Positions 39,490-56,515 of a DNA stretch of 64,000 nt are shown here, piece after piece. Position 1 is the first letter of the stretch; each line of letters opens with the position of its first letter. Where the stretch lies: the NCBI GenBank assembly GCA_963575745.1, contig CAUYUJ010020582.1:576083-640082 (forward strand), given 5' to 3'. Source of the DNA: Prorocentrum cordatum. Its lineage: Eukaryota; Sar; Dinophyceae; Prorocentrales; Prorocentraceae. The notes under the pieces are model-generated. The model saw only the letters and a program-made list of their open reading frames with translations, searched no databases and was not told where the DNA came from. The position numbers and the translations under genes are program-made.

Positions 39490-39700
39490 GTCATGGTGGT
39501 ACCACGAATAATAAAAAACAAAAGACTGAGGTATGTATGTTTGTGTGTAAGTATGGATTCATGTATGTATGAAGACATGCATGCATGTATGCATGTATGT
39601 TTGTAGGTATGTATGCATGCGTGCATGTATGTATATGTATACACATATACAGATGTATGATGATGTGTGTGTATGTGCGTGTCCGCCACCGTGCCCTGAG
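39090..39700. repeat. CT, TA and ATGT microsatellites
   Basis: CT tracts (39095-39160), TA tracts (39165-39200, 39425-39445, 39470-39490) and an imperfect ATGT/ATGC array (39530-39665). Between them, at 39310-39415, the phrase CGCGGATCCGA or GTGGATCCG recurs five times. A similar TA/ATGT array lies on the other side of the retrotransposon (56520-56990). Confidence 0.85.
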
Positions 39701-39900
39701 GCACGAAATAAAAAGTGTCTTCAGGTCTTTGGCCGAATCCCTGAAGCCTCGGCTCTCAATCCTGAGGACTCTTCCACCGGCCAAGGCCCCCCGATTGCCA
39801 CACCTCTTGGGGGCGCACCGCGTGCCCCCCTTTGGCTTCGGGAGGTGCTCCCGCACGACTCTTTCGGGGCCAATGTGGGTCCTGAGACGGGCCAGGAGGG

Positions 39901-40166
39901 AGTTTGAAGGGGGCTAGGAGGCCCAGCCAACAGCTTCGCCTTAGGCGAAGCCAAGTTCCAGCTCTGTTGTACCGTAGTAACGGTACTCCCAGTAGGAGAG
40001 GATGTGCCATCTTAAGGGATAGGAAGATCCTTCTGGTCTCGATAGCGATTGTGTGCCTCGCAATGAAGCGCAGTCATTCTTGGGATTTGGGCAGCCGGCC
40101 GCTTGAGCCGACGCGGCCGCGGGCGCACGCTCGCGTCCACTCTTTACGTCCCTCAGCTCGATTTAG
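39901..40166 (-). repeat. 3' LTR
   Basis: Shares with 55823-56063 a start AGTTTGAAGGGGG, the palindrome CTTCGCCTTAGGCGAAG, GTCTCGATAGCGATTGTGTG, GGCCGCTTGAGCCGACGCGG and the end ACGTCCCTCAGCTCG-TTTAG. It is 25 bp longer than its partner, mainly because of an insertion at about 39995-40020. A polypurine tract is not evident next to it. Confidence 0.85.
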
Positions 40167-40329
40167 TCGGGGGGGCGGGAGACGAAGCGTGAGCCCGTCG
40201 CCCCCTTACAGCAGGCACAGCAGCAAGTATACAGTATACACAAGGACAAAAAAAGAGGCGGGCCAGAAGGAAGCGAGCCTGCTCGCAAGTTGCCTTGCTT
40301 GTACAGTGCTGTACTTGAAATACTCCTCA

Positions 40330-43182
40330 GGCGGCGTCAGATCTAGATGTCTGGCCGGCCCGATATGGAGTATGCCTCTTCCGGTCATGCTTGAAGGCCT
40401 GTATACCTCCCATGACTTGTAGGAGCATATCTCTGTCGATGCTCCCCTTGGTGTGACCATCCGCGGTCATATCGCGGGTGTCGCACCACTGGAGGCTGTG
40501 CACGATTCCGCGTTCCATCATCTGTCGTATCCAACTGATGTTTCCTAAAAGGGTATACTCAATCGGCTTATTCAAGTCTTTGCTTGAAAAGGACTAAAAA
40601 ACATACTCAGCATCCATGGTCGAAGTGACCTTGATGCTCCGGCCACCCAACTCAAGTAAATCTGTCAACTGAGTGGGCGTAAGCGGCCCTGCGTGGAGCT
40701 CGTGCAGAGTCACAATCGTTGGATAACAGCCCTCCAATTTACGGGCTGCTGCTAATATCTCTGCTGAATAGCTCGAGCGGACCTGCAAGCAGCGAGACTT
40801 GCAGTGCGCGTCGGTCAAGTGAACGACAGGCTTACCGGATGACGTGCTTCCACGTCGTAGCAGGTTTGCCCCGCGAATGCCACAGCCTTTGAGGTCGTCG
40901 TCGGCGTCTCCACTCAGGCGTCGGTATCCTGAGTCGCTATGCAGGTCGACCTCTCCCGTAGGAGTCACCGCCTGATAGACGATGTTCTTTGGGCAGGCCT
41001 GTAGCTTCCTGGTGATCGCGCTCAGTCGTCGCACTTGGATGTTGGTCGGTTCTTGGACACGTTGTAGAGATACAACATGCGCCATCAACCACACCTGGGT
41101 GATTAATGCATACGCCAGCGCGCCGCTTAGGCCGACGAACACGTCTGCAACCATCTTGGATGCCTGAGCGTCAGCGTCGGCGCCGGTAAGTTCGGGATGT
41201 TGCATAATACGGAGCTGTTTGATGTATTCATATTGGTCCAAAGTGGCATTGCCGTCCTCTTTCTTGGTGCATGTCACAGCACAGTTGGTGCATGTGTGCT
41301 CGTTGAGTTCACACTTGCCAAAGGTATCTTCTACGCACTTGACATACTTGTCGATGGTGTCCTCAGTGCCACCTAGATTGACATCATCCACATGTTTAGC
41401 CGTGAGAAAATTGTTGCTCGTCTCGAACTCCTCGTCGTGGGACGCGGGTCGGAGACTACAACCTCTGGTGGCCCTTCTGAGCTTCAATGAGGGAGCCCGC
41501 GGTGCGTCTTTGGTGCCCGTGCCTGGTTTCAAGCACTGCAAGCAGTGCTTTGACTCATCGTAGCGTTCGAACCCTGGGAGAGTTCGGAGCACGGTGGCCG
41601 ATCCAGGCGGCAGAGTAAAACACACCGCACGTTGCTTTTCACCAGTAGCTTCAGCAAGGTCCTGATAGGTCAATCCCTTCAGGAAGGCCATGCTGATGTC
41701 GAGGGGAGCGATGATCCATTGCTTCTTGCACGCTGCCGCGCTGGCGACTAGCCTCTGGCTTGACCGTCCCGCCGTTCCCGAAAGGGTTTCTACGTCGAAA
41801 GCTTCGAGGTCCATGAAGCCTCGGAGTACCCGGCGAAGTCTGATAGTACGTTCCATATCGCCCTTCTCGTTCTTCACGAACTTCCATTTGTACACGCATC
41901 TCGAAGTTATGATGTTCGACGCTCTAGCTATTTCTTGCATCTTGAAACACTTGTTGTCGAACCATGTCTTGAGTTCGGTGTAGGGGGCTTTCGATACTCT
42001 ATCGGGATTCGCCTGGATGTCAGCTCTCGCGAGAAGGTCGTATTCCTTGACGGCCAAAGCTCGCTTTGCAACGGCGGTTGCATATACTCGCACAGTGGTC
42101 ACCCGGTCGACATCTAGTATCATGCGTTGTTGTTCGGACAAGACTATGTTTGACACTTCTGCCGTAAAGCTGAGTTCGACATATCGGCCATTCTCGTCTG
42201 AGTCCAGTCCGTAGCTGTCGCCTTCGACCATGGTACACATTGGGACGTCGTACGTCTCCTCGGCGTCGGAGTCGCGAGTGCGCCCCCACTTCGGCAGGTG
42301 CCCCCGCTGTTCATCAGCTACAGTGATCAGCACACCTTGATCTGGAACCATCTGTGTAGGTATTGTGAAGAGGTCCTCTGGTGGAGTTGCCTCCAGCAGT
42401 TCCCTTTCCACTCGTAGTTCTGCATACTGCACTTCCATAACATGTGACTCGGAATCAGCCCCTGATTCTTCGCAGATCGTAGGAAGCCGTCCATCATCAT
42501 GGGGTAGTTCGGCTTCTGAGGCTTCTCTTGCGGTTCCCTCCGGTGTCGGTGTATCCGCCGATTCCTCAAATACTGCCATGTCCTGATCAAAGCCTGCTTG
42601 AGGTAGAGTGGACTTCAAGCATTTGATGATTCTCGAATGTGCTGATCCAGTTATATCGTGTATATTCAAATCAGTACCTTCTGCTTCATAAAAACAAATT
42701 CCTGGATTCACGTCGTTGTCATAGTGGGCCAATGCGCAGCTGTCAGCATACATAACTGGAGGCAGCTTAAGAATACCCGTGGCTAGCCTGACTGAATCTA
42801 TATTCGCAATGCGGAAGAAGTTTCTGCTGGGGTGCTGTAGCGCTAGATGTACCTGAAGAGACAGACGGCTTGCACTCGTCATCTGAAGCGCCCCTTTCTT
42901 GGTCGGCACATAGCCAAAGGTCAGAGCAGGTCTCCCCGCTGATAAACTGGCCACGAATGTCAACACTGTGCGTAGTGCTGTGTTGTCGGAGCCAACCTCT
43001 CGGGCTATCAGTGCTTCAATATATAGTGAATGTCTGACATCGCCGAATTGTACTTGAACATCTCGATTGCCCACTCGGATGATGACTGGGCCCCTTCCGG
43101 GGTCATTCTTTACAACTGGGAACGGGCCATTCCAGCCTCCACAGTCATCCTTCGTGGTCGTGGGGCGATGATAATCGACCAA
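40330..43182 (-). pseudogene. Copia reverse transcriptase and RNase H
   Basis: Reverse transcriptase copies element RNA into DNA; RNase H removes the RNA. The reverse transcriptase core includes YKWKFVKNEKGD, PLDISMAFLKG (first catalytic Asp near 41700) and KHVDDVNLGG (YVDD-box form, about 41375-41405). RNase H follows with VDLHSDSGY (40925-40950), SSYSAEILAA and, after a TAG at 40594-40596, WCDTRDMTADGHTKGS (about 40432-40480). The sequence after the stop is in the same frame, so a single nonsense change cuts RNase H. The N-terminal 350 codons include VDYHRPTTTKDD and a spacer typical of dinoflagellate copia. Confidence 0.85.
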
Positions 43183-43250
43183 GTCTCCTTCTTCGTAAAA
43201 GTGCTGACCAGTAATATTCGCTTTAGTGCGTGAGGCACGATTGGTCTTAG

Positions 43251-43995
43251 CTACTGCTGTGGCCTGTGTGATAGCTTCAATACATTACCTGCGTATCGTT
43301 TGCTCACGAGAATGGTCCGCGTTTCCGTCGGCTGCTCGTGGTCCAGGACAGGTAGGTCAGGGAGCATTGCTGGTTGCCGTCCAAACAGAGCGTTATATGG
43401 TAACACCTCGCTATAGAAGGTGAACGCGTTGGCGGCGAACAAGGCCTCGTGCAGTAGTCGGGTGAACACAAGGGGTATGTCCAACCTATTGAGTTCAGCC
43501 TCCACGACGAGAAGTACATGGCGTAGGATGCCATTTCTGGCTTCGATCGTCGTAGCGCGCTGTCCACGCGCACGTATCCTAAGTTCAGTGCCTTTTGCCT
43601 TGAAGACGGCTTTCGCAGTGTCGTTGGTAAGGGCACCCTCTCCGTCGGAGTAGAGTACCTTTGCAAGTTCAAACTGCATCCAGCACTGATGATATGCATC
43701 CAGGATACTTGTCATAGTCTTGTCTGGTATCTCATTCCCAGTAGCATATCGCATACAGCGGTCGATGACCTGGAAGATGTTATGTTCTTGTTTGTAGAAC
43801 ATCAGATCACATTCCACTTCTTCATTAAATTTGCCAGGCAGTGCGGTAGATGGGCGTAACAGTATGCTCAGGCTTGTCCCAAGCTCTGTATTCCCGACAT
43901 GTGTCGCAGACACCTTTAATCCGGTTGAGTCTGACACTGTCCAGACCTATCTTGCTTGAGATGAGTCTCATCTTAAGCTCTTTCGCATGGAACCA
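43251..43995 (-). pseudogene. Copia integrase (frameshifted)
   Basis: Integrase joins element ends to host DNA. The zinc-binding part reads LRWFHAKELKMRLISSKIG and then KGVCDTCREYRAWDKPEH (43870-43990) in one frame. The catalytic core continues in another frame: FNEEVECDLMFYK (first Asp), LYSDGEGAL (second Asp) and TIEARNGILRH (Glu), so all DDE residues are visible. The slip lies at about 43840-43860. Downstream text GRQPAMLPDLPVLDHEQPTE is common in dinoflagellate copia. Confidence 0.85.
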
Positions 43996-44570
43996 TCGCA
44001 GTGTAGCTTCCGCAGTTCGCGTGTTACCACGCTGGGGTCAAGGCTTCGTAAATTTTGTAAACTGATTTGCACATCAAACCGTGACCAGTCTGGCAGTCGT
44101 GGTCGCGCAGCAGGGTTACCCGCTGGTGGTGGAGGAGGTGCTTCTCCACCTTGTTGTCGACCACGTCTGACTCTAATCTGTGGTAGTCGGAGATGGCCAT
44201 CCGAACTACCAGCTCCGCTCGAGGCAGGTTGCCCTGCAGCAGGTTCAGCAGCATGTCTGCCCACAGTGCTGTCGTGACTGCTCGCGCCCCCTGTAGGTCC
44301 AGCTCTTGAGCCGGGTCTCGGTGCTCTTAGCCGCGTGAGTGGCGATGCGGCTGGCGCCTCGGGTAGTGGCGCTGCTGGCTCAGCAGAAACTGGCGGTGCA
44401 GGTCCTGCTGCCGGTTTGGCAGGAACCGGCGGTATCTGTCCATGATTGTCGGGCAACTTCCAAGGCTTGGCAAACTTGCATTTGCCAAGTGATAAAACGT
44501 GCCCTGGCTTGTTTTTTACCGTTGTGTTTCTTGCAGCTCGGACATTCCCAATGGTAGTCGCCCTTATCGC
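43996..44570 (-). CDS. Pro/Ala-rich linker before integrase
   Basis: In the frame ending at 43968: KCKFAKPWKLPDNHG, a Pro/Ala/Gly linker with two A-G-X-P-A units (44110-44123 and 44224-44237), then SLQNLRSLDPSVVTRELRKL, a phrase often found just before integrase in dinoflagellate elements. Confidence 0.6.
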
Positions 44571-45426
44571 ACCACCTGCAATGTCTCGGATCTCTATCAT
44601 GTGAAGGTGAATACGCGTGAACATTATCCGCGCATGCGGGACAACCGGGCCCTCCCGAGGGCGGTCTCGCAATCGAGCCATCAGGTTGCCGAGGGAGACT
44701 CGGATCGTCGAAGTCGCATCCCCTCGCGTTGGTGACCAGCAGGGTGGAAGAATAAGGGTGGCCATGGAAAGGATCACGAGTTACCTGGGAGAGATCGTGC
44801 ACGATCTGAACAGCCTCGACAAAAAGCAACTGCATCTTTGGAGTAGATTGTGCAGCCATGGACAGTTCCCTGTTACAGACCGACGCATGCTGATAATGGC
44901 CAGTACATCGTTTTCGTTCAAAAAGGGGGAAGAAAAAGCGATGTTTGGCCATAATCTCAGTCGGCTTTCGTATCAGTACCCCATGGGAGTCACGTAAGCC
45001 AGTTGTGCATGGATACGTGTTCACCTTGCAAGTGCCCTTGCTTTTGGCCAACGTAGTCCATGGTGGTATCTGATCCACCCAAGTACCCACTGGTTGTTCT
45101 CGTATGTAGAATCGTCGAATATCGTTCTGACGTGCAGCCGCGTTCCCACAAAAATTGATAAGTGGCAAATCTGCTCTATGATGTTCATGCCAAGTACCAT
45201 AGTTAACCTGCGCAGTGAAATAGGAAGGCAACCCAGTTGTCCTGCAGCTGGGTTGTAGCATGTCAACTTTGACAACACAAACGTCCAGATAGTGCATCGC
45301 TGCATCTTGAACATCCTTGTTACCAAGGTCAACAAAGGAACGTTTATCGAGGTCTCCCCCGGAGGACAGACCTTGGCTGAATGCTAGCTGAGAGATGCCT
45401 CCATTTCCTCCACGCAGTTCCAACAT
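44500..45426 (-). CDS. SAM-methyltransferase-like domain plus Cys-rich zinc ribbon
   Basis: Begins MLELRGGNGGISQLAFSQGL. LELxGGxGG is like a SAM-binding motif I. VDMLQPSCRTTG looks like the motif IV loop with its Cys, and REQPVGTWVDQIPPW like a motif VI acidic-Pro loop. This resembles a C5-methyltransferase fold far removed from gene B. It ends in GCPACADN, HCRWCDKGDYHWECPSC, a multi-Cys zinc-binding stretch at about 44520-44660. Retrotransposons carrying captured DNA methyltransferases are known in dinoflagellates. Activity here cannot be judged. The first codon in the frame is not ATG, so it is likely part of the polyprotein. Confidence 0.5.
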
Positions 45427-45603
45427 ATCTGCCTTGTTGTGTCGTCCATAGCACAGAGTGGAATTATGGAGAATACATATGCATCGGATTCAGCAAGTTG
45501 CCCCGCAAGTAGCGCGATGAAAATTGCCTCTTCATCGTCACTTTCAGTGTCGGAGTCAAGAGGTACGTCGGTGTAGTACGCGCGACATCCGAGTCCTTTC
45601 AGG

Positions 45604-46590
45604 TCATCTCCACAGTCGTCGTTGCCTTCTTCGACTATTTTGGGTATCTCGCGCGGTTTGATGCCTGCTTCTTTGTCTGCTTTCTGTTTTCTTGTTGTTG
45701 AATTCTGGCATCGATTGGTAGTGCTGTCTGTTATTCAGTCCCAGGTGAATTGAGTGCCGGAAATTCCGGAATAGAGGGGAGCACGCGGCCGCGCTCAATC
45801 GAAGGGGGAGGGAGACGATCGTCATCGATGATCGCCACTCGCCTTGAGCGTGGACGTGAACTCCCGTGCCCGAGGAGAGTCGGTTTCGGCCGCTCCCCGT
45901 ACAGTCGAGTGCGGATGTAGGTAACACCACTTGGTAATGGTGCGTTGTAGTTGTACCCGATAAGCTGCTCCTGAATATTGATGTATTTTGTGCAGGTTTC
46001 CCTGCTGTTTTGCATGTGCGTTGCCATAGGTTGGTCGGGATGCGCGCGCAGGTAGCTGCCACTTGCAGATATGATCCGCTGGGCAACGCATTAGAACGGT
46101 CGCACTTGAGGCCGAAGTGATAGAACCGCATACGCATGACTTGTAGATCAAGATCTTCAATAACGTCTCGCATGGGACCTTGCTTCCAGAAATATCCTGG
46201 TGGTCCCACAAGCACAATAGGCATACGTAGAGCCCGAGCTTTGGTCATAAAATTTTGGATGCGCTGAAAATGTGGCCCTGCCCGCTTGCCAGGCAGTCTC
46301 ACATGCCAATCAGCAGGTGTTGCCACCCGCAACAGTTGGTAATCACCCAAGAGTGAAGCACGCAAATACTGTGTACCAGTGGAGGCCATGACCTCTATAT
46401 GTGTAATGCGGTCACACATGTAGCCGCGGGCTCGGAGTTCAGGGCAAGCTGTCCGTAGATCTTCAAAAACGAACGCACGAGAGTGATAACGATGCGATAG
46501 CCCGTATTTTTCTGCAGCGGCCGCACAGCCGGGTCCACTGCTGTCCGTGGCAGCCGCACAGCCGGGCTGGCCACTGTCCCTGGCGCGCAC
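45604..46590 (-). CDS. Copia polyprotein spacer domain, unknown fold
   Basis: Reads FEDLRTACPELRARGYMCDR, RMPIVLVGPPGYFWKQGPM and MRFYHFGLKCDRSNALPSGS. It lies where dinoflagellate copia elements have a region between protease and integrase that holds a conserved GPPGYFWKQ-type loop. One A-G-K-P-A palindrome lies at 45992-46005. A short tandem repeat encodes CAAA-type residues at 46510-46585. The frame decays after about 45900. Confidence 0.4.
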   Translation of the reverse strand: MRARDSGQPGCAAATDSSGPGCAAAAEKYGLSHRYHSRAFVFEDLRTACPELRARGYMCDRITHIEVMASTGTQYLRASLLGDYQLLRVATPADWHVRLPGKRAGPHFQRIQNFMTKARALRMPIVLVGPPGYFWKQGPMRDVIEDLDLQVMRMRFYHFGLKCDRSNALPSGSYLQVAATCARIPTNLWQRTCKTAGKPAQNTSIFRSSLSGTTTTHHYQVVLPTSALDCTGSGRNRLSSGTGVHVHAQGEWRSSMTIVSLPLRLSAAACSPLFRNFRHSIHLGLNNRQHYQSMPEFNNKKTESRQRSRHQTARDTQNSRRRQRRLWR

Positions 46591-46639
46591 AGCCGGACGA
46601 GCTGATGCCGTTACTATCCTGTGACATCATATATGCGTG

Positions 46640-46975
46640 AGCATCGCTCATAGCAGGTGCCCCCGCGGCTGGCTCTGGATCAGATGCCTCTTTGACGAGC
46701 AGTGGATCATCTTCGCAGTGAGGATTGGCCGTAATAGTAAACGACATCGACCTTTTATCCTCAGTAGCAGTCCCGTACTCGTCGGCCTTGAGTGCCAGAT
46801 GTCCAGAAGGGGTCCTCATCAAATCAAGCACTCTGGTACCCTTTCCAAATAGGATCTTGTACATCTCAGCGCCAGGGATGATCATCTTCTCGCGCCCCTG
46901 CTCCAGGATCAGGATGGTCCTCATGTTGGACGTGCTCCTCAAACCCAGGATAACAGGGAGGTTATCCCCAGAACC
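46640..46975 (-). pseudogene. Copia protease, C-terminal half (second copy of the overlap)
   Basis: Reads NLPVILGLRSTSNMRTILIL, KMIIPGAEMYKILF, GTRVLDLMRTPSGHLAL. The LLGL-type beta hairpin followed by PSGHLAL is typical of the end of dinoflagellate copia proteases. Its first ~90 bp are a direct repeat of 48110-48200. Confidence 0.6.
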
Positions 46976-46979
46976 CGAA

Positions 46980-48110
46980 GGCCCCACCCCCCCCTCCGAA
47001 ATCCCCCCCCCCCCCCTGCTGGACCCCCCCCCCTCCCCGGCCCCCCCCCCCCCCCTGACCCCTCCCCCCTCCCCCTCTGGAAAACCCGAAGGGGGTGTCA
47101 CTGCCGGTTCGAACCCCCCCCCCCTCGAAAACCGGAGGTTCTACCGCTGCTGGCGGAAAACCGGGGGGGCCACTGCCCGTTCGAACCCCCCCCCTCCGGA
47201 AAACCGGGGGGGGTCACTACCGGTTCGAGCCCCCCCCCCGAAAACCGGAGGGGGGCCACTGCTGGTTCGAAGCCCTCCCCACCCCTCCCCTCTCAACGCC
47301 GGCAAACGACTCCCGGCCCCTACCACCGTCCTCACCACATCCGCCACTGTTGTTCCCAGCACCACTGTCCTCACCACCACTGTCCCCACTGGTTCCACCA
47401 CCGCCCCTACTGTCCCCACCAGTGCCACCACCACTGTCGCACTGTCCCCACTGTCCCCACCATTGTTCCCACCGCAGTTCCACTCACCCAAATTTCTCCA
47501 CGGCCCCAACCACTGCCCGACTATCCCCACTGTCCCCACTGTCCCACTGACTCCTCCGCTGTCCCACTGAGCTGTCCCACTGTTCCCACCACTGTCCCCG
47601 CTGTCCCCACCACTGTCCCCACTGTACCTCTGTCCCATTGTCCCACCGCCGTCCTCGCCACCGCCTTCACCACTGTCCCCACCACCACTGTACCCTCCAC
47701 TGTCCTACTGTTTCCACTACATTCCCACTGTCCCTGCACCACTGTCCCCACCACCACCGTCCCCACAACTGTCCCACTGTCCCCACTGTTCCCACCATTG
47801 TCCTCACCATTGTCTCCGCCACTACCGCCCCCACCATTGTCCCACTGCCCCCACCACTGCCCCGCTGTCCCCTCACCACTGTCCCCACCACCACCGCCCC
47901 CACCACTGTCCGCACCCCCCGTCGGTTTTCGAGGGGGGGGGGTTCGAACCGGCAGTGGCCCCCGTGACCCCCCCCCCTTTTCATGATGAGCTTGGGGGGG
48001 CGTCGAATCGGCAGTGACCCCCACCGGTTTTCCGGGGGGGGGGGGAGGGGTTCGAACCGGTAGTGACCCCCCCTGGTTTTCCGCCAGCAGCGGTAGAACA
48101 CGCTCTTTCT
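46980..48110. mobile_element. 1.1-kb insertion inside the protease: inverted repeats around a CCACTGTCCC minisatellite
   Basis: The arms are inverted: GGTTCTACCGCTGCTGGCGG at 47137 pairs with CCGCCAGCAGCGGTAGAAC at 48078. GGTTCGAACC and AAAACCGG phrases recur in both arms, one way on the left and reversed on the right. The centre (about 47330-47910) is a minisatellite of CCACTGTCCCCA variants. The whole is flanked by about 90 bp of duplicated protease sequence (46885-46975 and 48110-48200). GGTTCGAA plus CC matches the RNA polymerase III B-box consensus. No gene is present. Confidence 0.7.
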
Positions 48111-48619
48111 CATCTTCTCGTGCCCCTGCTCCAGGATCAGGATGGCCCTCATGTTGGACATGCTCCTCAGGCCCGGGATAGCAGGGGGGCTCTCCCCAGA
48201 ACCCGCAGCTACATTTGCTGAGTAAGTGTCAAGTCTCGGCACGGCAGGTGTCCCCGCCAGACCCCCCCCTTTCTTCGCGCGCAATCTTGCAATGCAGGGA
48301 TTCATCGCAGATCGCGGCGCCATGTCCCACTCCAAACACATAGCCTCTTCGTCAGGTTGAGCCTCTTAATGGCGTGTCCGCGGGAACGAGATACCTGTTC
48401 GAAAGTCTGCGCCGTCTTTAAACCAATAATATGACTGCCAATCTCCAGAAGGATAGTCAACATACCATTCATCATACTTCCACTGTTGGCTGCCAAGGCT
48501 AGTTCGCGGCGATCACCAAATAGTCCTGGCACTTCAGACAATGTCGCACCGTGCATACCTTTGCGGCGCCTCTGCTCCAACACCCAGTCGTTCCGTGACA
48601 AAGATGTACAGACGTTCAT
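48110..48619 (-). pseudogene. Copia protease, N-terminal half (frameshifted, Asp to Glu at active site)
   Basis: Reads LTILLEIGSHIIGLKTAQTF, GHAIKRLNLTKRLCV and, after a 1-nt slip near 48325, GVGHGAAICDESLHCKI. In active copia proteases the loop is D(T/S)G; here it is EIG, so the catalytic Asp codon has become Glu. The frame changes again near 48290 and reaches NVAAGSGESPPAIPGL before the insertion. One A-G-T-P-A palindrome lies at 48244-48257. Confidence 0.6.
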
Positions 48620-49155
48620 ATACCCGAGCCTCCTTCCGTAGTAGGGCTCTTTTCAAAGATCCAGGCTGTAGGATATTCGTCATATGTGTATGGGTGTGAT
48701 GCAGAGGTAGTGGGCAGGTTCAGAAACGTATCCTCCTCTGCGCGCATGCCCATTTGGCCATCTGTGTTTACCATAAACACAGTACGCAGCATGTCGCGTT
48801 CGGATATCGCAATGTTGCCACTGCGCACGCTCACTGGGCTCTCTGTCCTACGCTGATTGCGTGGACGAATGTCTCGCCCATATGGCATGTACGTGCGTGG
48901 AGACTGAAGCCACTGAGCACTCCTGTCAGTAGCCCTCTCCATACGCCTCAACCACGTGTCATCAAGAGACACCGAAGGTGGTGCTGACGTAGCAGGTGCC
49001 CCTGCATTGTTAGCGGTCTCAGCTACCAGTGGCATAGTCGTGTCTGCAGCAGGTGCCCCTGCAGGTGTGGTGGCCTCCGTGACTAGCCCCGCGTTGGCTG
49101 ATGATGCGGGTTGCCCCGCTGGTGTCGTCGTCGAGACTACCGCATTGCCCGTCAT
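48616..49155 (-). CDS. Copia polyprotein linker rich in A-G-X-P-A
   Basis: Reads TTTPAGQPASSANAG, TTPAGAPAADTT, NNAGAPATSAPP, then WLRRMERATDRSAQWLQSPR and a stretch ending TAWIFEKSPTT. Three palindromic units within 128 bp (48992-49119). Starts ATG at 49155. Its function is probably a flexible spacer. Confidence 0.5.
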   Translation of the reverse strand: MTGNAVVSTTTPAGQPASSANAGLVTEATTPAGAPAADTTMPLVAETANNAGAPATSAPPSVSLDDTWLRRMERATDRSAQWLQSPRTYMPYGRDIRPRNQRRTESPVSVRSGNIAISERDMLRTVFMVNTDGQMGMRAEEDTFLNLPTTSASHPYTYDEYPTAWIFEKSPTTEGGSGI

Positions 49156-49715
49156 CGTCGCCGTGACGCGGTTGAGCTCTTACGGAGGTCCCTGAGTTCG
49201 TTCGCCCCTCGGAGTATATCTTCATGACGGTTGAGTGACTCCTGATCTCCGGCAAGGGCGTAGTGGAACTCGGCTGTGATTAAGCCAACGCCCCTGCATA
49301 TGGCGCAATGGGCCTCAGTTGCGGAACCTTCCATGTTCCCAGCCAACTGTCTATCCACACGAGCATGTGCAACTCGATCCCAGCACTGTGCGTAGAATAT
49401 GTGGCCGCACTGGAGCCTCCAGACTTTATCGTGGTTCATGAAATTGTCCAGGCATGTGGTACACTTGCTGAAGTCGCCGTCACTGATGATGGGCGGTGTT
49501 GCCGATGGCCTGGCACGCATCTGACGCTCCAGAGTGGTCTCACCAGCTTCGTATCGAATCGGTGAAACCGTCGGCAACTGCATTGCTGCAAGCGCGGCTG
49601 GACTGATCGCAGGTGTCCCAGCTGTATTGGAAATAGCAGGTTGCCCCGCACGGCTCAGCATTCTGTTAGCCTGACGCTCGTGGTTGCGACGCTGGCGGGC
49701 AGACTGCATCGCCAT
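49152..49715 (-). CDS. RING-finger-like domain in the retrotransposon
   Basis: Reads DFSKCTTCLDNFMNHDKVWR, LQCGHIFYAQCWDRV and HCAICRGVG (49298-49470). The spacing C-x2-C, C-x-H, C, C-x2-C is that of a RING-H2 finger, which usually recruits ubiquitin-conjugating enzymes. Expected ligand 5 (His or Cys, CGHxFHxxC) is Tyr here (CGHIFYAQC), so folding may be impaired in this copy. Preceded by A-G-Q-P-A and A-G-T-P-A units. RING modules occur in other dinoflagellate copia polyproteins as far as I recall. Confidence 0.65.
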   Translation of the reverse strand: MAMQSARQRRNHERQANRMLSRAGQPAISNTAGTPAISPAALAAMQLPTVSPIRYEAGETTLERQMRARPSATPPIISDGDFSKCTTCLDNFMNHDKVWRLQCGHIFYAQCWDRVAHARVDRQLAGNMEGSATEAHCAICRGVGLITAEFHYALAGDQESLNRHEDILRGANELRDLRKSSTASRRR

Positions 49716-49749
49716 GTTGGCCTGCTGCGCCTCATGAACGGCTAGGATC

Positions 49750-50574
49750 TCAGGGCGCAGCGGCGCAGCCCTCCCACACTCCCATGGTGGATGGCACTAC
49801 TCGGCCTGGGGCCTGTTGATGCACATCTTGGTCCATGAGGGCGGCCAGATATCCATAATGAGGGATCTGGCCTGGCAAACCTGATGCATACCCTGAGCCA
49901 CGCGTCAACTGAGACTGGTAGAAGTCGTCGGCCGTCGACCGAACATACGGGTTTTCGGGCTGTGTCCCCACTCGGGGAGTGCCACTTACCTGAGCGTGAT
50001 AGTCAGGATAGAGTGGGTAGTCCATTGGTGCTGCTGTGGGACGGTCGGCAACCGTTGGATCATATGTCGGATGACTGAAAAATGCTGGCCTGTCCGGTGA
50101 TGGATTTGGATCCGGAACATACTCCCAAGGTGGCGTCCAGTTGGCGCGAGGGAGGTCGATGCCATCCCTACGCGTACTCTGAGCGGCTTCGCGCATCTGC
50201 TGGTACACCCATTCTTGCTGACCAACCAAACTCTCGTTCTCTGTGCAGCATACTGGTCAGGAAAAGCAGGTTGCCCCGCATGTGGACGCGGCGATGTAAA
50301 TGGCGACGTCGCCTGTAAAGCCTGATAGAGCTGCGGGTCCATTCGAATGCTTTGGAGCCTCGCCTGTAGGCTGTTTGTGCTCCCAGCACTCTGTGGAGTA
50401 CCGAATGGAGTTATGGCTCTGCTCATTGGAGCAAATGAAGCAGGTTGCCCTGCGGGTACTGGCAGCTGCCGTACATGAGCACGCCACGGGTCGCTGGCGC
50501 ACAGCGCGTCGGAGGGCGCGATGCCACTTGAAGTAATACCTGTCGCATCCGCGTTCTGAGCCTGTAGCCATCAT
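49750..50574 (-). pseudogene. Copia polyprotein segment, Pro/Gln/Tyr-rich, frameshifted
   Basis: Two overlapping frames, 50426-50230 (LQARLQSIRMDPQLYQAL, RPHAGQPAFPDQYAAQ) and 50229-49750 (NWTPPWEYVPDPNPSPDRPA, YHAQVSGTPRVG), look like one protein broken by a slip near 50220. Carries palindromic units at 50266-50279 and 50440-50453. No domain is recognised. Confidence 0.4.
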
Positions 50575-50789
50575 CTATCATATCCCCCTGCAGGTGTCCC
50601 CGCTTGATACGTGTCCTGTATCATGAGCACTGTTGAGAATTCGACTTCCTGAATGGGAGCCGGTTCAGGACACTTCAAATTATAAGGGGTCTTTGGGATG
50701 AACCAATCTCTCAAAGATGATGCATCATTCCGATATTCGTACATCTTTTCGATCGAGATATTACCACCTTGACGCGGCTGATTGCTATC

Positions 50790-51797
50790 TCACAGGCATA
50801 AGGGATTGACCCATGTATGTCCCACACGGTTGTGCCTGCAATATTGGTTGGGCTGAATACCTGTTAGCTGCACGATATGGGTCGGAGCAATTCTGCCGTC
50901 GCGGCCTGCTGACATTATGATGTCATTTGCTGGGCGCCAAATCGGCATGTTGTCCCGAAGGTTCTTCAAGCTAACCATGACCAACACCTTGGAATCAACG
51001 CGCAGACCAGACTGGATTCGATTATCACCAGGAAAATATGGGCAACCATGTACAAACTGTCTGCCCCTCTTCTTGCTGGTGTCGTCTGCGCGGCATGACA
51101 ATCCGACGCTAAGTATGTTGGGGATGATTTACCACTGAATACCATGAGTGAAAGAACAAGGTGCACCTGGAACAGTCACATCCGTAATTCTCATAGACCA
51201 TGATTCAGGGCGCCTTATCCCAGGGCTGCTATGTCCGTTGCTAGGACGGATTAAATACGTGTCGTGTGACTCGGAGGCGTACTTGCACTTGTTGAGCTGC
51301 AGCCTGTTCTTCTGCATTCCAGTGTGAAGAACCATGCCAATCAGGTCCAGCACAGCTAAAACCTGGCACGCCCAGTGCTGATTATTGGGCTTCTGGCGCG
51401 CAGTCTCCAGGTGCTTGCGGCGATAATTCATGCCCTTCAGCTGGCCAATGGTCGAGCAACTGCGACAGCTCTGCCCATCCATCGCACTCATCGTAGGATG
51501 GTACTTCCCGCAGAAATCTGCCAGAGAAAGACGACCTTTATGAAAATGTTTGTGACGAAGGGCAGTCGTAAGCCACTCTGAAATCTGACGCTGCTTATTA
51601 TAGCCGAGCCCTGGCGTTCTGATACCTTCTGCTTCAAGGGTCCCAGTCAGATATTCCCTTTCAGAATCGTGCGTGAGTGCCGGGCGTCTACGCAGAAAGT
51701 TGCGCAAACTGTCGCGCATGTGCGTCCTGGTCATGATGCGCGGCGGCGTCCACGAGATCGCATTGCACCGCCATATATCGATCAGACCCGTCATCAA
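50790..51797 (-). pseudogene. RNA 2'-phosphotransferase (Tpt1/KptA)-like domain with an internal stop
   Basis: Tpt1/KptA removes the splice-junction 2'-phosphate from RNA using NAD. Its catalytic Arg-His-Arg-Arg set is recognisable here: WLTTALRHKHF (Arg, His), KKRGRQFVHG (Arg) and IWRPANDIIMSAG (Arg). They come with FTHGIQW, ILSVGLSC, SKVLVMVSLKNLR and GRDGRIAPTHIVQL, the typical ends of the fold. A TAA at 51129-51131 lies in frame between FTHGIQW and IPNILSVG, so this copy is interrupted. The domain sits between the gag-derived ORFs and the RING segment. Such a domain is not a normal copia component. Confidence 0.6.
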
Positions 51798-51852
51798 TCT
51801 GAGGATGATATGCTGGGTTGATCTTCATGCGATTGGACGTGCGCAACTTGTC

Positions 51853-52914
51853 CTAGTACTCTCGGCATTCCACTGGCATCTCCAAAGTGAGGGCAGGTTG
51901 CCCTGCAGAGCTCTGAGCAGGTTGCCCCGCGGAACTCTGAGCAGGTTGCCCCGATGGACGCTGAGCTGCCACTGATGCGGCAGGTGCCGGCGCGTTCGCC
52001 GCCGATATGGCAGCGCCAGCAATTCCCCTGGGCGTCCGAGGAGTTTCTGTCGGGGTACTGATGTCGAAGTCCTGGCGTTTCTTCTCCTTGATGTTGTAGG
52101 ACTCGACTGTCTTATCTTTGGGAGCCATTCCTGGTGCATTCGATGAGGTTGCCAGTCGTTTTTCGGTACCGCTCCTTGTTGAGGAAGCATCCCTTGTTCG
52201 TCCTTCCAGCGAGGGCACCCAGCCTGTCATGCGCGCCCGACCTGGTGTAGGGCCGCGACGTGGCACAGGCTCCTTTGGAGTAGGGGTGCTGGTGCCTTGA
52301 AATGCAGCTGCAGCGGCGGCAGCCACTGCTGGTCCTCTGGATCGACGTCGGTCAGCAGGTTGCCCCGCAGATCGCTGCTGTTTACTGTCTCCAGGATTAG
52401 GATCATCTGGGCTCTTCCTTTTCTTCCTTCTAGGTCTGAACTGATCAGGACCAAGCGATGGACTTGATGAATCCGAAGATGGAGGAATGTCGATAAGCGC
52501 CTCTGGCTTCGGCTTGGGAGCTGCCTTAGCCGTGGCCCCTGCCGGTGCCCCTTGCCCATATCGCACGGGACCTCGGTCAGGCTTCAAATCGACCATCTGG
52601 CGTTTTGAGGGCCAGGCTCTGAATCGTGGTCTCGTGTTTTCCTGAAAGAAGGTACGCGGTGACGCTGCGCTCCTGTAGAAGGTACGTGGTGGCGCAATGC
52701 CGGAATCGTCCGACGCGTGCCCCTCAGGGGCCGCGTCCGCGGGGTCAACTTCTTCGGCCATCATCATTTGCATCTTCATCAGCTTCTTGTTGATCATCTT
52801 CTTTTTCTGATTCATGATCAGCAGGTTTCCCTGCGTGCCAATCGCGATTGAAGTGCGCCAAATGATGAAGAGGTGACAAGTTCTTCCATATGAGGCTTGT
52901 TCGGGCAATTTCAT
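51853..52914 (-). CDS. Copia polyprotein segment, Pro/Ser/Arg/Lys-rich linker
   Basis: About 350 codons of disordered text: PKPKPEALIDIPPSSDSSSP, FRPRRKKRKSPDDPN, then an Ala-rich run and three A/S-G-Q-P-A units in a row at the C end (51893-51954). A basic cluster RPRRKKRK could be a nuclear signal. The start of the frame overlaps the end of the upstream frame. Confidence 0.45.
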   Translation of the reverse strand: MKLPEQASYGRTCHLFIIWRTSIAIGTQGNLLIMNQKKKMINKKLMKMQMMMAEEVDPADAAPEGHASDDSGIAPPRTFYRSAASPRTFFQENTRPRFRAWPSKRQMVDLKPDRGPVRYGQGAPAGATAKAAPKPKPEALIDIPPSSDSSSPSLGPDQFRPRRKKRKSPDDPNPGDSKQQRSAGQPADRRRSRGPAVAAAAAAAFQGTSTPTPKEPVPRRGPTPGRARMTGWVPSLEGRTRDASSTRSGTEKRLATSSNAPGMAPKDKTVESYNIKEKKRQDFDISTPTETPRTPRGIAGAAISAANAPAPAASVAAQRPSGQPAQSSAGQPAQSSAGQPALTLEMPVECREY

Positions 52915-53419
52915 CAGCTGTGGCGTGGTCGTAGTCTCTCTCAGTCAGCTGCTCCTCATATGGCGCTGCATTGGGGTCGGTGCACTGGCCCCGACCTTCG
53001 CCGCGAGACCAAGCCCGCGGTGTCTTTTTAAAGTTCGGGCTTCTTGATGGGCGCCTAATGGGGCAGCCAAGCCTGTTGTCAGCATATTCGGGGCACGCGC
53101 AACAAACGTTTCTGTAGAGCGTCCACTCCTCGATAATAGCCCTCTGGAGGTTGCGCGTGACCATCTTTTCTCGCGGTTTAACAAGCCCTGTCCTTGTCGA
53201 TCGCATGATCTTGCCCTTCCATTTCGTTGTGCATTGCAGAGAGAATACCAGTGACGGATCTGATGCTCGGTCCAACCCTGAGCCAAATCGTATCTCATCC
53301 TTCCCGGGGGCGCGCGCTGACAAGCCGACCCAGCCTCTGCGTAGCCAACAAGGCGCTGGATTCCGCCCTCTGGGTATTCTTCTCGCGGCTGATAAGTTCG
53401 AGGCGGGCGCGCCCCGCAA
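52745..53419 (-). CDS. Copia polyprotein segment with Cys-rich patch
   Basis: Reads EWTLYRNVCCACPEYADNRL, GCPIRRPSRSPNFKKTP and ends in an Asp/Glu-rich tail (ESEKEDDQQEADEDANDDG). Contains A-G-K-P-A at 52821-52834. The Cys pattern CCAC, GC could bind zinc. No family is recognised. Just downstream in plus coordinates (53438-53452) is a run of about 14 G. Confidence 0.4.
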   Translation of the reverse strand: MRGAPASNLSAARRIPRGRNPAPCWLRRGWVGLSARAPGKDEIRFGSGLDRASDPSLVFSLQCTTKWKGKIMRSTRTGLVKPREKMVTRNLQRAIIEEWTLYRNVCCACPEYADNRLGCPIRRPSRSPNFKKTPRAWSRGEGRGQCTDPNAAPYEEQLTERDYDHATADEIARTSLIWKNLSPLHHLAHFNRDWHAGKPADHESEKEDDQQEADEDANDDGRRS

Positions 53420-53535
53420 GCGCTCCCTCCTCGGGGGGGGGGGGGGGGCAGGTCTATTGGCCTGCCATGGCGGGGCCTTTGGAGTTCCCGCATCAGGACA
53501 ATGAGGGCGCTGAACCGCGACGCATCATGCGGTCG

Positions 53536-54285
53536 CTAGTTCCCCATTATTCGCCCTCGTCGTCGTCGCGAAACTTCTTCCTCCAGAAGTGACGGCTCGC
53601 CGATCGCTTCTGGCGGCTCATGGACCGATCTGAAGCAACAGAAATAGGGAAAATCTGCATGATGACGAAGCTCAGATTGAATACGCTCAGGTAGATCACC
53701 AGCGTTTCGCGGGTGTCCCCGCGGAGGATCGCCATCACCTATTTCCATATCTGTCGGATTTCCCATCGCCCGAGGATAGAGCATCGACTGTATTTCCTCG
53801 TCTGTTGCAGGAATGGTAACTTCTGACTCCGCGGGCGCCCCCGCCATGTCAGCATCTCGTTCGGCGGGCATGTGGAAGTTCTCGACGAATTCGATATCTG
53901 CAGGTTGCCCCGCGATGCGTATGCCCAGCCATTCTGCCAAATCGATGTCGTCGTGGCCAGTGAATACCTCCTCAAACAGCTCATCGGCGCAACTCTCGAG
54001 GGCCATACTGGCGCTGAGAGATCCGGCGACCATGGAAATAACAATTGTGGCTGAGCTATCGGCAAGGTTAGCTAAAAGAGACCCCCAGTCAACATGCTGC
54101 ATGACGAAATCTATTTGGGCCAGATGTATTGACGGACCCCTGCCTCTCCCATCGCCTCGGGGGCACCCGCGTCGGAAATTCCTTGTGCTGTGGCATATGT
54201 CGCACACCATAGTTTTACCGCTGGCATCCTTTGGGTTCCCCCGTCGTCCTTTGCCCCTGCCTGAATGCTCGTATGCCTCTACCAT
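53536..54285 (-). CDS. Copia Gag-proximal segment with degenerate zinc knuckle
   Basis: Reads KTMVCDICHSTRNFRRGCPR (about 54156-54213). The knuckle is C-x2-C-x4-H-x4-C; here the His position is Asn (CDICHSTRNFRRGC), so metal binding is doubtful. Further on are IRIAGQPADIEF and MAGAPAESE. It ends RRRRGRIMGN with a stop. Begins ATG at 54285, overlapping the end of the previous frame. Confidence 0.55.
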   Translation of the reverse strand: MVEAYEHSGRGKGRRGNPKDASGKTMVCDICHSTRNFRRGCPRGDGRGRGPSIHLAQIDFVMQHVDWGSLLANLADSSATIVISMVAGSLSASMALESCADELFEEVFTGHDDIDLAEWLGIRIAGQPADIEFVENFHMPAERDADMAGAPAESEVTIPATDEEIQSMLYPRAMGNPTDMEIGDGDPPRGHPRNAGDLPERIQSELRHHADFPYFCCFRSVHEPPEAIGEPSLLEEEVSRRRRGRIMGN

Positions 54286-54577
54286 GCAATCGCCAACGCT
54301 GACCTTTACCTATGCCTCGACCTTCGCCTTTTCTCTGAAGTGATCGCCGTGCGATACGCCTTACCTTTCGGGCCGGTTTCTTCGTGAATCTCCGCCAGCG
54401 ACGCTCGTGTGCTTGATGGCCCAAAAATAACCATTGCGCTTGCTGCTCTCCAGTAAGGTACGCAGGCATATCAGTGCAATCAAGAGCTGTAGCTTCGTCA
54501 TCTGAAGACGCATCGGCACGCGTACCAGAGTCGAAGTCGGACTCGGCGGGTTGCCCCGCTGAGCCAATTAGGACCAT
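54215..54577 (-). CDS. Small ORF overlapping the end of gag
   Basis: ATG at 54577 lies within the last codons of gag (CCATGGTCCTAA), so it would be read in a shifted frame. It encodes SAGQPAESDFDSGTRADASS and a basic C end (KPARKVRRIARRSLQRKGEG). It is likely a frameshifted continuation of gag rather than a separate gene. Confidence 0.4.
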   Translation of the reverse strand: MVLIGSAGQPAESDFDSGTRADASSDDEATALDCTDMPAYLTGEQQAQWLFLGHQAHERRWRRFTKKPARKVRRIARRSLQRKGEGRGIGKGQRWRLHGRGIRAFRQGQRTTGEPKGCQR

Positions 54578-55800
54578 GGCTTGAACGGGAAGACCGCGTC
54601 GGGCGGTCCCCGAAGCCTGGCCCAGGAGTCTTGCGACCCCGAGGCCGTTCCACCATTCTGAGCCAACAGTGTAATGGTCTCAGTTGCGTGTGGACCATCA
54701 TTCCAGACGTCGTTGGCAGGCTGCCCTGCGTTAGCTTCCACGTGGAAGGTCTCGGTTCGGTGACCGTGACTGGCGACGCCGCCAATATTGCCGGGGGTTC
54801 TCTCAGCAAAGTGAGCACATGACCTCATGCGTTCAAGTAGAGCGTCAAGTTGTTGTTGGTCTCTCGGCATGCGGTGGTTTAGAGGCTGCAAGATTTGTCG
54901 TGCACGCGATGTCCCCACTCCAAGAGCTCTGAATAGAATCACTTCTAGGATTTGGAAATTGAGGAAGTTGAAGCCGGCTGTTTCAGCTTCATAGCGGGCT
55001 TTCTCAAACCGTGCTAACGTCTGGTCGATGCGTTCTCCCGCATGGACTCGGAAATCTATGAGAGCCGTACCATAGTTGAGTTGGCACTCCTCTTTGAAGT
55101 TCTCGAACTTCGTGCTTAAGAAGAACATGATGTAGGTGGCGCCGTCAGTAAGGCGGCCACCTATGTTGACGCCAAAGTTGATAACTGCTGGAGGGACTCT
55201 GATGGCTATTGTCCGTGCGAGACCTCCCAAACCTCGCTGCAGAGCTGCAGCCTGCTGGGAGGGCGTCATATTGCCTGTGGTCACGTTGATCCAAGCATGT
55301 GCTTCGCGGACGTATTCGCGTAAAGGTACTTGACCGGCTTGGTCCCAATGAGGGCCGGTCGTTCTTGTGTCGTCTGCGCCGAGCATATGTCCTACCGCAC
55401 ACCCGATAGCGACCCATGTGAGCCCAAAGATAGTAACGCCAATCCAATGGCCTCGTAGGTCGTAGCCGGACGTAGTCGGTTGGGACTTCCGTTGGGCAGT
55501 GCTAAGTCTGCGTGGGGTTGGACGCGGCAGTATTTCATATCGCATGTTTCCATGCATTATATCATCGAAGAAATTTGCAATTTGAGTAGGTGGGTGGACT
55601 TCAGGAGTGTAGAAACGCAGGGATGTAGGATGTAAAAGAGAGACCTCCGCTTGAGCAGAGGTATCGCTGCAAATGTCCTTGCGGTATTGCGTAGCTATAT
55701 AGACTCCTCCGCGCAAACCCACTGCACCCTGATGTTCCACCATGTCCGTAGTCCACCAGATAGTGCCGTGGATGGTAAGGAGTAGAGCTAGAGCTGACCA
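54568..55800 (-). CDS. Copia Gag-like protein
   Basis: Gag forms the particle that packages element RNA. The C-terminal half (KFENFKEECQLNYGTALIDF, FEKARYEAETAGFNFLNFQI, RALGVGTSRARQIL, MRSCAHFAERT) matches the helical copia Gag pattern. The N-terminal half has two hydrophobic stretches, SALALLLTIHGTIWW and IGVTIFGLTWVAIGCAVG, long enough to span a membrane, which is odd for Gag. The open frame runs back into the LTR without an ATG; the first in-frame ATG is DMVEH near 55744. Ends TAA at 54568. Confidence 0.65.
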   Translation of the reverse strand, partial: WSALALLLTIHGTIWWTTDMVEHQGAVGLRGGVYIATQYRKDICSDTSAQAEVSLLHPTSLRFYTPEVHPPTQIANFFDDIMHGNMRYEILPRPTPRRLSTAQRKSQPTTSGYDLRGHWIGVTIFGLTWVAIGCAVGHMLGADDTRTTGPHWDQAGQVPLREYVREAHAWINVTTGNMTPSQQAAALQRGLGGLARTIAIRVPPAVINFGVNIGGRLTDGATYIMFFLSTKFENFKEECQLNYGTALIDFRVHAGERIDQTLARFEKARYEAETAGFNFLNFQILEVILFRALGVGTSRARQILQPLNHRMPRDQQQLDALLERMRSCAHFAERTPGNIGGVASHGHRTETFHVEANAGQPANDVWNDGPHATETITLLAQNGGTASGSQDSWARLRGPPDAVFPFKPWS

Positions 55801-55806
55801 CCATAA

Positions 55807-55822
55807 GCCAGTTCCGCTACCA
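55807..55822 (-). promoter_or_regulatory. Primer binding site
   Basis: Directly after the last base shared by the two LTRs, the sense strand reads TGGTAGCGGAACTGGC. Its complement ends in GCTACCA, as expected for a tRNA 3' end with CCA. Adjacent placement with no gap fixes the LTR edge at 55823. The tRNA was not identified. Confidence 0.75.
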
Positions 55823-56063
55823 AGTTTGAAGGGGGTTGGGAGGCCCAGCCAGCAGCTTCGCCCTAGGCGAAGCCAAGCTCCAGCTCTGTTGTGCCGTAGC
55901 AACGGTAGTCCCAGTAGTCCCAGTAGGAAAATCCTTTTGGTCTCGATAGCGATTGTGTGCCTCGCAGGGAAACACAATCATATTTGGGCGGCCGGCCGCT
56001 TGAGCCGACGCGGCCGCGGGCGCACGCTCGCTTCCACTCCTTACGTCCCTCAGCTCGCTTTAG
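55823..56063 (-). repeat. 5' LTR
   Basis: 241 bp; the sense-strand order is CTAAA, CGAGCTGAGGGACG and so on, ending CCCCCTTCAAACT. It carries the palindrome CTTCGCCCTAGGCGAAG. It differs from the 3' LTR by many substitutions and indels (for example the CAATCAT / CGCAGTCATTC region), so the insertion is not recent. Confidence 0.85.
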
Positions 56064-56099
56064 AATGAGGGACCCAGGAGGTCGCACCTTCCGAAGAGG

Positions 56100-56515
56100 G
56101 CTCCGAAAGGCCAACATCATTGATGTTCCATAAATGTCTACATGTTTGGGGGGGTCCTCGACTTTTCGAGCTTCCGACATCCTCGAAGACCGCCCCAAGA
56201 AGGCCCAAGAGGCCCCCCAAAGAGCTCCAAAACGACCCAAGATAGCTCCAAGACAGCCCCAGACGCGCCCAAGACGGCACAAGAGAGCCCAAAGACAGCC
56301 CCAAGAAGAGCCCAAGAGGGGGAACACGACCCGAAAGTCAAAGTCTTCCTTCCGCCCCAAAGAGCCTCCAGGAGGCCCCCAAAACGCCCCATAGACGCCC
56401 CAAAACGGCCCCCAAGAACCCTCGAACGGGCCCCGACGACGTGCCTAGAGGCCCCCCACCACATCTCAGCGAACATCTTTGAAACCTAAGATCCACAATT
56501 CAGGCACGGTGGCGG
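56100..56515. repeat. AAGACGGCCC-type minisatellite, third block
   Basis: Variants of CCCAAGACGGC, CCCAAGAGGCC and CCCCAAGA at 9-14 nt spacing, as at 1545-3140 and 10570-11130. Frames on both strands are low complexity. Confidence 0.7.

Follow-up and report, generated by a model that had tools for sequence, protein, structure and literature searches.

A recurrent 14-nt RNA hairpin in a Ty1/copia-type retrotransposon family of Prorocentrum cordatum: a candidate Gag-recognition site

The element and its hairpins

This report concerns a ~16-kb long terminal repeat (LTR) retrotransposon of RVT_2 type from the dinoflagellate Prorocentrum cordatum, and a 14-nt hairpin that recurs along its sense RNA. 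The element occupies 39901-56063, on the minus strand, of a 64,000-nt stretch of contig CAUYUJ010020582.1 (assembly GCA_963575745.1, forward-strand positions 576,083 to 640,082). The whole stretch is called the window, and positions refer to it unless a relative is named. We describe the hairpin sites, compare them with those of related elements, and consider what might recognize them.

As in Ty1/copia elements, direct LTRs surround an internal region: the 3' LTR (39901..40166) and the 5' LTR (55823..56063), both on the minus strand, are 83% identical over a 266-column alignment. The reverse transcriptase lies in an open reading frame (ORF) of 896 aa at 40594..43284 (minus strand); its RVT_2 match of 27.7 bits is under the curated cut-off of 31.6, and that of a relative, F, introduced below, is above it at 40.9 bits. 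An N-terminal Gag-like ORF of 469 aa spans 54568..55977 (minus strand), with the stretch 54619-55413 59% identical to subfamily II. The reading frames of the window element are broken up, and upstream of the reverse transcriptase no integrase family match was found among the ORFs scanned.

The initial annotation had described 23 copies of the pattern GC-N-GG/4 nt/CC-N-GC within 44110-54729, in one retrotransposon. The array is borne out; the count is 22 in that interval and 24 in the whole element, all on the minus (sense) strand, the additional two lying at 42294 and 42926. Across the 24 copies the third pair (positions 3/12) is A-U in 8, G-C in 4, G-U in 11 and T-T in 1. Dinucleotide composition was considered as the cause and rejected: 200 dinucleotide shuffles of the element gave a mean of 0.26 paired sites (maximum 2), and 23 are observed. 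A wider motif, GC-NN-G[GNNA]C-N'N'-GC, covers the generalized hairpin. With both patterns combined there are 29 sites in the element, 28 of them fully paired, all on the sense strand and all between the LTRs, with none inside an LTR. Outside the element, the window holds no paired site of the wider motif on either strand; the looser pattern has three matches there, of which one (8411) is paired, without a GNNA loop.

By position, the first site is GCAAGGCAACTTGC (40285..40298), between the end of the reverse transcriptase ORF and the 3' LTR, where there is no ORF of at least 100 aa. It is followed by GCGGGGGCACCTGC at 42294..42307 (phase 2, QRGHLP), which has a compensated partner in relative F, GCGGGGAGACCTGC at 42926..42939 (peptide AGRPA), GCGTGGTAACACGC at 44019..44032 (phase 1), a variant with the loop TAAC, GCGGGTAACCCTGC, at 44110..44123, and GCAGGGCAACCTGC at 44224..44237. 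Farther along are GCAAGGGCACTTGC at 45028..45041 (phase 1), GCGGGGCAACTTGC at 45493..45506, GCAGGGAAACCTGC at 45992..46005, a second GCGGGGGCACCTGC at 46653..46666, GCGGGGACACCTGC at 48244..48257, two copies of GCAGGGGCACCTGC at 48992..49005 and 49049..49062, and GCGGGGCAACCCGC at 49106..49119. The one site with a mismatched third pair (T-T), GCTGGGACACCTGC at 49609..49622, precedes two copies of GCGGGGCAACCTGC at 49636..49649 and 50266..50279. GCAGGGCAACCTGC recurs at 50440..50453 and 51893..51906, and GCGGGGACACCTGC at 50590..50603, again with no ORF of at least 100 aa. GCGGGGCAACCTGC also occurs at 51917..51930, as an apparent local tandem duplicate of the copy at 51893, 24 nt away, and at 52355..52368 and 53900..53913; GCAGGGAAACCTGC recurs at 52821..52834, in phase 2 of the longest overlying ORF. 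The remaining sites are GCGGGGACACCCGC at 53709..53722, GCGGGGGCGCCCGC with loop GGCG at 53831..53844, GCGGGGCAACCCGC at 54546..54559, GCAGGGCAGCCTGC with loop GCAG at 54716..54729, and GCATGGAAACATGC at 55542..55555 near the 5' end (phase 2, MHGNMR).

Most window copies are read in the phase that gives the peptide A-G-x-P-A (AGxPA), as had been noted from the sequence. The copy at 53709-53722 had been called out of frame, and it is, in phase 2 with the peptide PRGHPR; the copies at 42294, 44019, 45028, 52821 and 55542 are likewise off the AGxPA phase of their longest overlying ORF.

Relatives of the element

The genome searched comprises 4.13 Gb in 21,875 contigs. Every relative was chosen via hairpin matches. 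The fetched copies, 16 in all, were sorted into subfamily I (the window element, W, and eight loci), subfamily II (D, F, N and P) and subfamily III (three 10-kb parts, III_a, III_b and III_c). Relative F consists of loci L008 and L009 joined end to end. The LTRs are 99% identical in D and F, 87% in G and 83% in W; as judged by this identity, D and F are young copies. The Gag-like region of F has a homologue in 14 of the 16 copies. As for the other two, B aligns to W over several stretches, and Q was matched by an LTR piece and the hairpin comparisons.

Paired sites of the wider motif number 25 in the window element, 32 in D, 36 in F and 15 in G. The LTR ends of D, F and G could be placed, and these elements have no paired sites in 3.6, 3.6 and 4.5 kb of flanking sequence, respectively, and none antisense. 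Thus, on three elements with known ends and that of the window, the sense RNA of this ~16-kb element family bears some 15-36 hairpin copies per element. The motif also emerges when it is not specified: with all hairpins of 5 bp and 4 nt ranked, GCNNG[GNNA]CNNGC comes first in W (25/144), F (36/187) and III_b (28/94), and the next-ranked classes have 4, 5 and 2 members.

The subfamilies differ in their preferred forms. The commonest loops are GCAA in I (57/173), GCCA (53/115) and GTCA (30/115) in II, and GAAA in III (31/54); middle pairs are preferentially G-U or A-U in I, G-C in II and mixed in III. Relative F has a further 15 sense hairpins with GC..GC ends and a GNNA loop whose closing pair is other than G-C (at 3403, 6253, 6394, 8410, 9553, 11182, 13708 and others); these subfamily II hairpins are perhaps weaker variants of the site. 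A separate group, IV (L029 and L030), has hairpins of the GC..GC frame with mostly GCTA loops and matches neither the F proteins nor each other; six of the L029 hairpins fall within ~250 nt, partly as a 33-nt repeat, and seven ORFs of the group gave no Pfam match.

Genome-wide, the G-C form of the motif occurs 30980 times against 3390 for a reversed-pattern control, the A-U form 13618 against 734, the G-U form 14238 against 1509 and the A-C form 2951 against 938. The A-C form, the only unpaired one of the four, is the rarest and yet above its control. Among the matches listed, 13 of 100 A-C places are GCAGGGTTACCCGC, the complement of the sense G-U form at 44110. The paired excess of ~53,000 amounts to roughly 2,000 element equivalents, if each carries ~25 copies. 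The spliced leader CCGTAGCCATTTTGGCTCAAG, which we take to be dinoflagellate-specific, occurs 7201 + 7017 times in the genome and not at all in the reversed control, in agreement with a dinoflagellate host.

Three P. cordatum proteins match 12-13% of a query from relative F at 97-98% identity, and no relative was found in a viral contig collection. Two metagenomic proteins that resemble the element contain the AGxPA peptide: P0002, 36% identical, has 8 copies against 0.13 expected by shuffling, and P0001 has 1 against 0.01. At the protein level, they suggest that the hairpin array may extend beyond this genome.

Pairing and its conservation

In an anchored test, sites were picked by GCNNGGNNACNNGC alone, with no requirement for pairing. 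On the sense strand both free pairs are formed at 160/182 sites in subfamily I, 128/128 in II and 82/85 in III; the antisense figures are 0/6 and 0/4 in I and II, with no sites in III. The third pair in subfamily III is G-C at 34 sites, A-U at 18, U-A at 17, C-G at 11, G-U at 3 and A-C at 2. All four Watson-Crick pairs are used within the 10 kb of III_b, where 28/30 sites are paired and the best of 5000 permutations reaches 17. The same comparison gives 27/28 for III_a (best permutation 17), 27/27 for III_c (15), 25/26 for W (23), 36/36 for F (34) and 32/32 for D (30). When the closing pair is freed as well, pairing is seen at 26/37 sites in W, 51/59 in F and 28/36 in III_b, against 22, 32 and 15 for the best of 2000 permutations, and the closing pair is then G-C in 25/26, 36/51 and 28/28, respectively. 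The antisense strand under this release has a small excess in D (5/11; best permutation 4) and nothing beyond permutations in W (3/11), F (3/10), III_b (0/2) or III_c (0/3). Among sites selected for the apical part and for pairs 3 and 4, GC..GC ends are present at 25/47 in W, 36/50 in F, 32/48 in D, 28/35 in III_b and 27/30 in III_c; among the ends listed, each other combination occurs at most 3 times. From these tests, the outer pairs, the closing pair and the first G and last A of the loop are mostly fixed, the middle pairs vary with pairing retained, and the NN of the loop is free.

Homologous sites were compared over aligned stretches of at least 300 bases, with at least one intact copy in each pair, which biases the counts slightly to conservation; many of these pairwise counts share copies and are thus not independent. 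Gapped hairpin sites were left out of the first comparison (20/176 in II, 66/630 in I and 26/85 for I vs II) and of the middle-pair comparison (2/90 in III, 19/187 in II and 75/724 in I). In 156 aligned hairpin pairs of subfamily II, 7/1872 positions other than the loop NN differ and 22/312 at NN, with 6.5% divergence outside. Against 17.1% background divergence in subfamily III, the middle pair is the same in 167/176 comparisons, swapped on both sides in 6 (3 distinct swaps), changed on one side in none and broken in 3; fixed pairs are broken in 9/264 comparisons. One such swap is GCTGGGAAACCAGC vs GCTCGGAAACGAGC. Subfamily I has 198 one-sided and 11 two-sided changes from pair to pair and 101 broken comparisons, so that decay is visible in this subfamily. 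Compensation extends across subfamilies: at the same place of the reverse transcriptase ORF, the window has GCGGGGGCACCTGC (42294) and F has GCAAGGCCACTTGC. The initial annotation had proposed that the sense RNA forms a hairpin whose stem covaries and whose loop is GNNA, with a pair-covariation test on related elements as the check; the two-sided swaps, together with free pairs formed beyond every permutation, give this proposal strong support.

Readings of the array

Most subfamily II and window copies are in the AGxPA phase, and AGxPA alone gives four of the five pairs, so the hairpin might simply follow from the codons of a conserved peptide. As sole cause this is refuted, and we give it next to no credence. 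In comparisons of F with D, N and P, which all share F, fourfold-degenerate third positions differ at 0/322 places inside hairpins and at 729/6485 outside, the wobble positions staying invariant while residue x varies; at codon positions 1-2 the counts are 10/157 in the loop NN, 3/710 in the rest of the hairpin and 709/26891 elsewhere. The initial annotation held that the nucleic acid is kept and not the peptide, which these figures uphold, and named as its refutation relatives that retain AGxPA with synonymous codons breaking the stem. The opposite is seen: the full hairpin codons are used by 23/25 AGxPA peptides in D, 26/28 in F, 26/27 in N and 24/26 in P (99/106 in total), and in broken ORFs by 8/11 in W, 2/3 in G, 7/8 in K and 4/5 in C. 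Codon bias was tried as the cause and rejected, since background codons in F (GCG.24, GGG.15, third base A.22, CCC.16) would not lead to 26/28. Phase also differs between subfamilies, being mostly 0 in II and mostly 2 in III: in phases 0, 1 and 2, respectively, F has 26, 4 and 5 copies, besides 1 that starts on the final base of the pol stop codon, and III_b has 3, 4 and 18, its other 3 lying outside ORFs of 200 aa. The subfamily III peptides, mostly RGNP, QGNL, LGNQ and similar, are by this evidence set by base pairing, and some copies lie outside ORFs altogether. A DNA-level palindrome, acting as a binding, integration or recombination site, would fit the near-palindromic DNA; we consider it equally negligible, because both strands would then be treated alike. 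Forms that are G-U in the sense RNA would be A-C on the other strand, as the initial annotation had reasoned, and in subfamily I the third pair is most commonly G-U (85/182) with A-C absent, subfamily III has 2 A-C sites of 85, and G-U exceeds A-C genome-wide. A miniature palindromic element that inserts itself into the retrotransposon, the other alternative raised at the outset, would account for the many near-identical copies and for local tandem duplicates (51893/51917; F 10753-10825), and is nonetheless very improbable. Counting both directions, the hairpin is present in the other copy in 146/163 cases in III, 328/356 in II and 623/1051 in I; in the same order of subfamilies, the site is altered but aligned without a gap in 15, 4 and 353 cases and gapped in 2, 24 and 75. 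The proposed comparison of loci with and without the hairpin therefore ends against insertion: in these 101 gapped cases, within I, II and III, the gap is never 14 or 15 nt long. Those in II are mostly of 18, 24, 30 or 48 nt, as local repeats would give. Moreover, sites are gained and lost by substitution within conserved protein (VVTREL with, VVQREL without), homologous sites carry compensated changes, the strand is fixed, and stems differ within one element. Since pairing is kept, fourfold sites inside hairpins do not change, phase differs by subfamily and G-U forms outnumber A-C forms, selection acts on RNA, and we are practically certain that the hairpin is an RNA structure under selection.

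Fixed bases on a required fold argue for recognition in trans, and it is very probable, as far as sequence can tell, that a trans-acting factor reads the hairpins. If they instead slowed ribosomes at domain linkers of the polyprotein, aiding co-translational folding, one could understand why most subfamily II copies encode AGxPA (D 23/32, F 26/36), often, by inspection of the translation, in low-complexity stretches between domains. We regard this as improbable: pausing requires stability and not fixed GC..GC ends with a GNNA loop, several copies fall where the pol ORF is conserved from one subfamily to another, an F copy has its start on the final base of the pol stop codon, and the window copy at 40285 comes after the reverse transcriptase ORF and before the 3' LTR. 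Binding by a host or element factor for some other RNA step (translation control, stability, export or hiding from silencing) is a more serious alternative, if a rather unlikely one. The recognition signature does not specify the step, and the RNA-modifying KptA/Tpt1 domain and RING finger that the element encodes could act with the bound RNA. Yet 15-36 sites over a genome-length RNA exceed the need of one regulatory site, and subfamily-specific loops are more readily explained by a partner that the element encodes than by a host factor common to all.

The initial annotation had suggested, besides insertion, a recurring protein or packaging site in the element RNA. This is the reading that we favor, and we put its chances at about even: the hairpins may be Gag-binding sites for packaging the genomic RNA. 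The 14-nt hairpin would be recognized sequence-specifically by a trans-acting factor, most likely the element's own Gag with its CCHC zinc knuckle. Many dispersed sites would allow Gag to bind the genomic RNA cooperatively, and the bound RNA would be selected and condensed into particles; the subfamilies would differ in loop and middle pair because the Gag of each lineage has evolved together with its own sites. A single CCHC knuckle (C-X2-C-X4-H-X4-C), with a flank mostly rich in K, R and G, is found in 10 of the 16 fetched copies (G, K, M, D, F, N, P and the three of III) and so in all three subfamilies. Upstream of the knuckle, the Gag-like region of F shares 53-65% identity with copies of the other subfamilies. 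Loop dialects and knuckle sequences both differ by subfamily, which suggests co-evolution, on three lineages. A stronger form of the proposal, in which each lineage marks its RNA, over most of its length, with a private hairpin dialect that its co-evolving Gag knuckle reads as an address code, so that among co-resident elements each packages its own RNA, is offered tentatively.

Several observations weigh against packaging by Gag. The knuckle pattern was not found in 6 of the 16 copies, the window's own included, presumably through decay. An AlphaFold2 model of the Gag-like region from a nine-row alignment has a mean pLDDT of 37 and establishes no capsid fold. In F the sites are unevenly spread, with 27 in ORF1 (9.4 kb) and 8 in ORF2 (6.6 kb), and RRGNPR beside the knuckle is kept there without the hairpin that III has at that place. 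The hairpin has a probability above 0.5 in its 134-nt context at 57/89 sites (14/25 in the window, 20/36 in F and 23/28 in III_b). Another RNA-binding factor would give an identical signature. In HIV-1, according to PMC7395439, exchange of a psi-hairpin loop abolished nucleocapsid (NC) binding to that hairpin and affected packaging little; one loop need not, on that account, determine packaging.

Some further features of the proteins and of the locus may be recorded here. In the polyprotein of F (L008:1852-9999), a KptA/Tpt1 RNA 2'-phosphotransferase (58 bits) and a RING finger score above cut-off, an unusual cargo; F also has a CCHC match, under its cut-off. P0002 has the same pair of Pfam domains, KptA/Tpt1 and RING; no paper placing KptA in an LTR retrotransposon was found in the literature, of which the subscription part was poorly covered. 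A lone in-frame TGA separates the Gag-like ORF from the pol ORF at L009:1245-1247 in F and at the same place in D, N and P, with the conserved downstream context CGGGGGCAG in these four subfamily II copies. It looks like a programmed readthrough site; UGA-CGG is, we assume, a readthrough context. In the window element, ~1.1 kb at 46882-48208, bounded by two 99-nt direct copies (89% identity) and seemingly extra, holds a CCACTGTCCCC minisatellite and GGTTCGAACCCCCC units. Elsewhere in the window, both on the minus strand, an ORF at 22359-23810 matches C-5 cytosine DNA methylase (25.4 bits, cut-off 22), and 60748-61554 has a weak RVT_1 match (23.8 bits, under cut-off), perhaps a LINE fragment.

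Known systems and significance

The closest parallels to the array are viral. Many short stem-loops with a common recognition motif run through the genomic RNA of MS2 and picornaviruses and the pregenomic RNA of hepatitis B virus (HBV), as described in PMC6281560 and PMC8472981, and such dispersed packaging signals are a modeling paradigm for several RNA viruses (PMC6281560). The element resembles them in having multiple short hairpins along its genomic RNA that share one motif, the first-ranking one in W, F and III_b, and in having this structure under selection. It differs in that the motif is nearly exact, is directly visible by covariation and belongs to an LTR retrotransposon. With HIV-1 it shares a CCHC Gag protein; however, the high-affinity sites of HIV-1 are in ~150 nt of the 5' leader, whereas those of the element span most of the internal region.

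Repeated-motif boxes of Sireviruses, which are plant Ty1/copia elements, are likewise high-copy palindromic motifs; PMC2829016 places them in LTRs and upstream of env and suggests a role in transcription regulation. An LTR location with a CGG-CCG DNA core does not apply to our hairpins, whose 29 window sites are all internal and which, by the G-U and covariation evidence, act as RNA. Rickettsia palindromic elements are short palindromes inside ORFs. Unlike those, the hairpins have no insertion footprint and are kept by selection at homologous places; the precise empty sites of mobile palindromic elements (RPE, REP or MITE) are absent from the 101 gapped cases. As in GNRA or GNNA tetraloops, the first G and last A of the loop are fixed, but most loops in subfamily II read GNCA, and the family is therefore not purely of GNRA type. 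GNNA is a favored loop class in an in vitro ligation assay (PMC11773311). A search of Rfam 15 with window positions 39500-56500 (E up to 1) returned eight matches, all at 39529-39693, outside the element, and under the gathering score. No description of repeated hairpins in dinoflagellate or other LTR retrotransposons was found in the literature, with the same coverage as above.

The case for dispersed, specific protein-binding hairpins in the genomes of RNA viruses and retroelements has been made largely with degenerate motifs. The motif of this family is strict, with dozens of copies in an element and tens of thousands in the genome; it covaries within a single element, and has dialects that diverge between lineages. 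The address code, if true, would represent an exact kind of dispersed packaging signal, arranged as an array, with concerted evolution across some 25 sites. Recognition, packaging specificity and RNA-protein co-evolution would be directly testable with one 14-nt RNA and a small protein domain, and the hairpin arrays provide a natural experiment in which the joint change of an entire set of sites can be followed.

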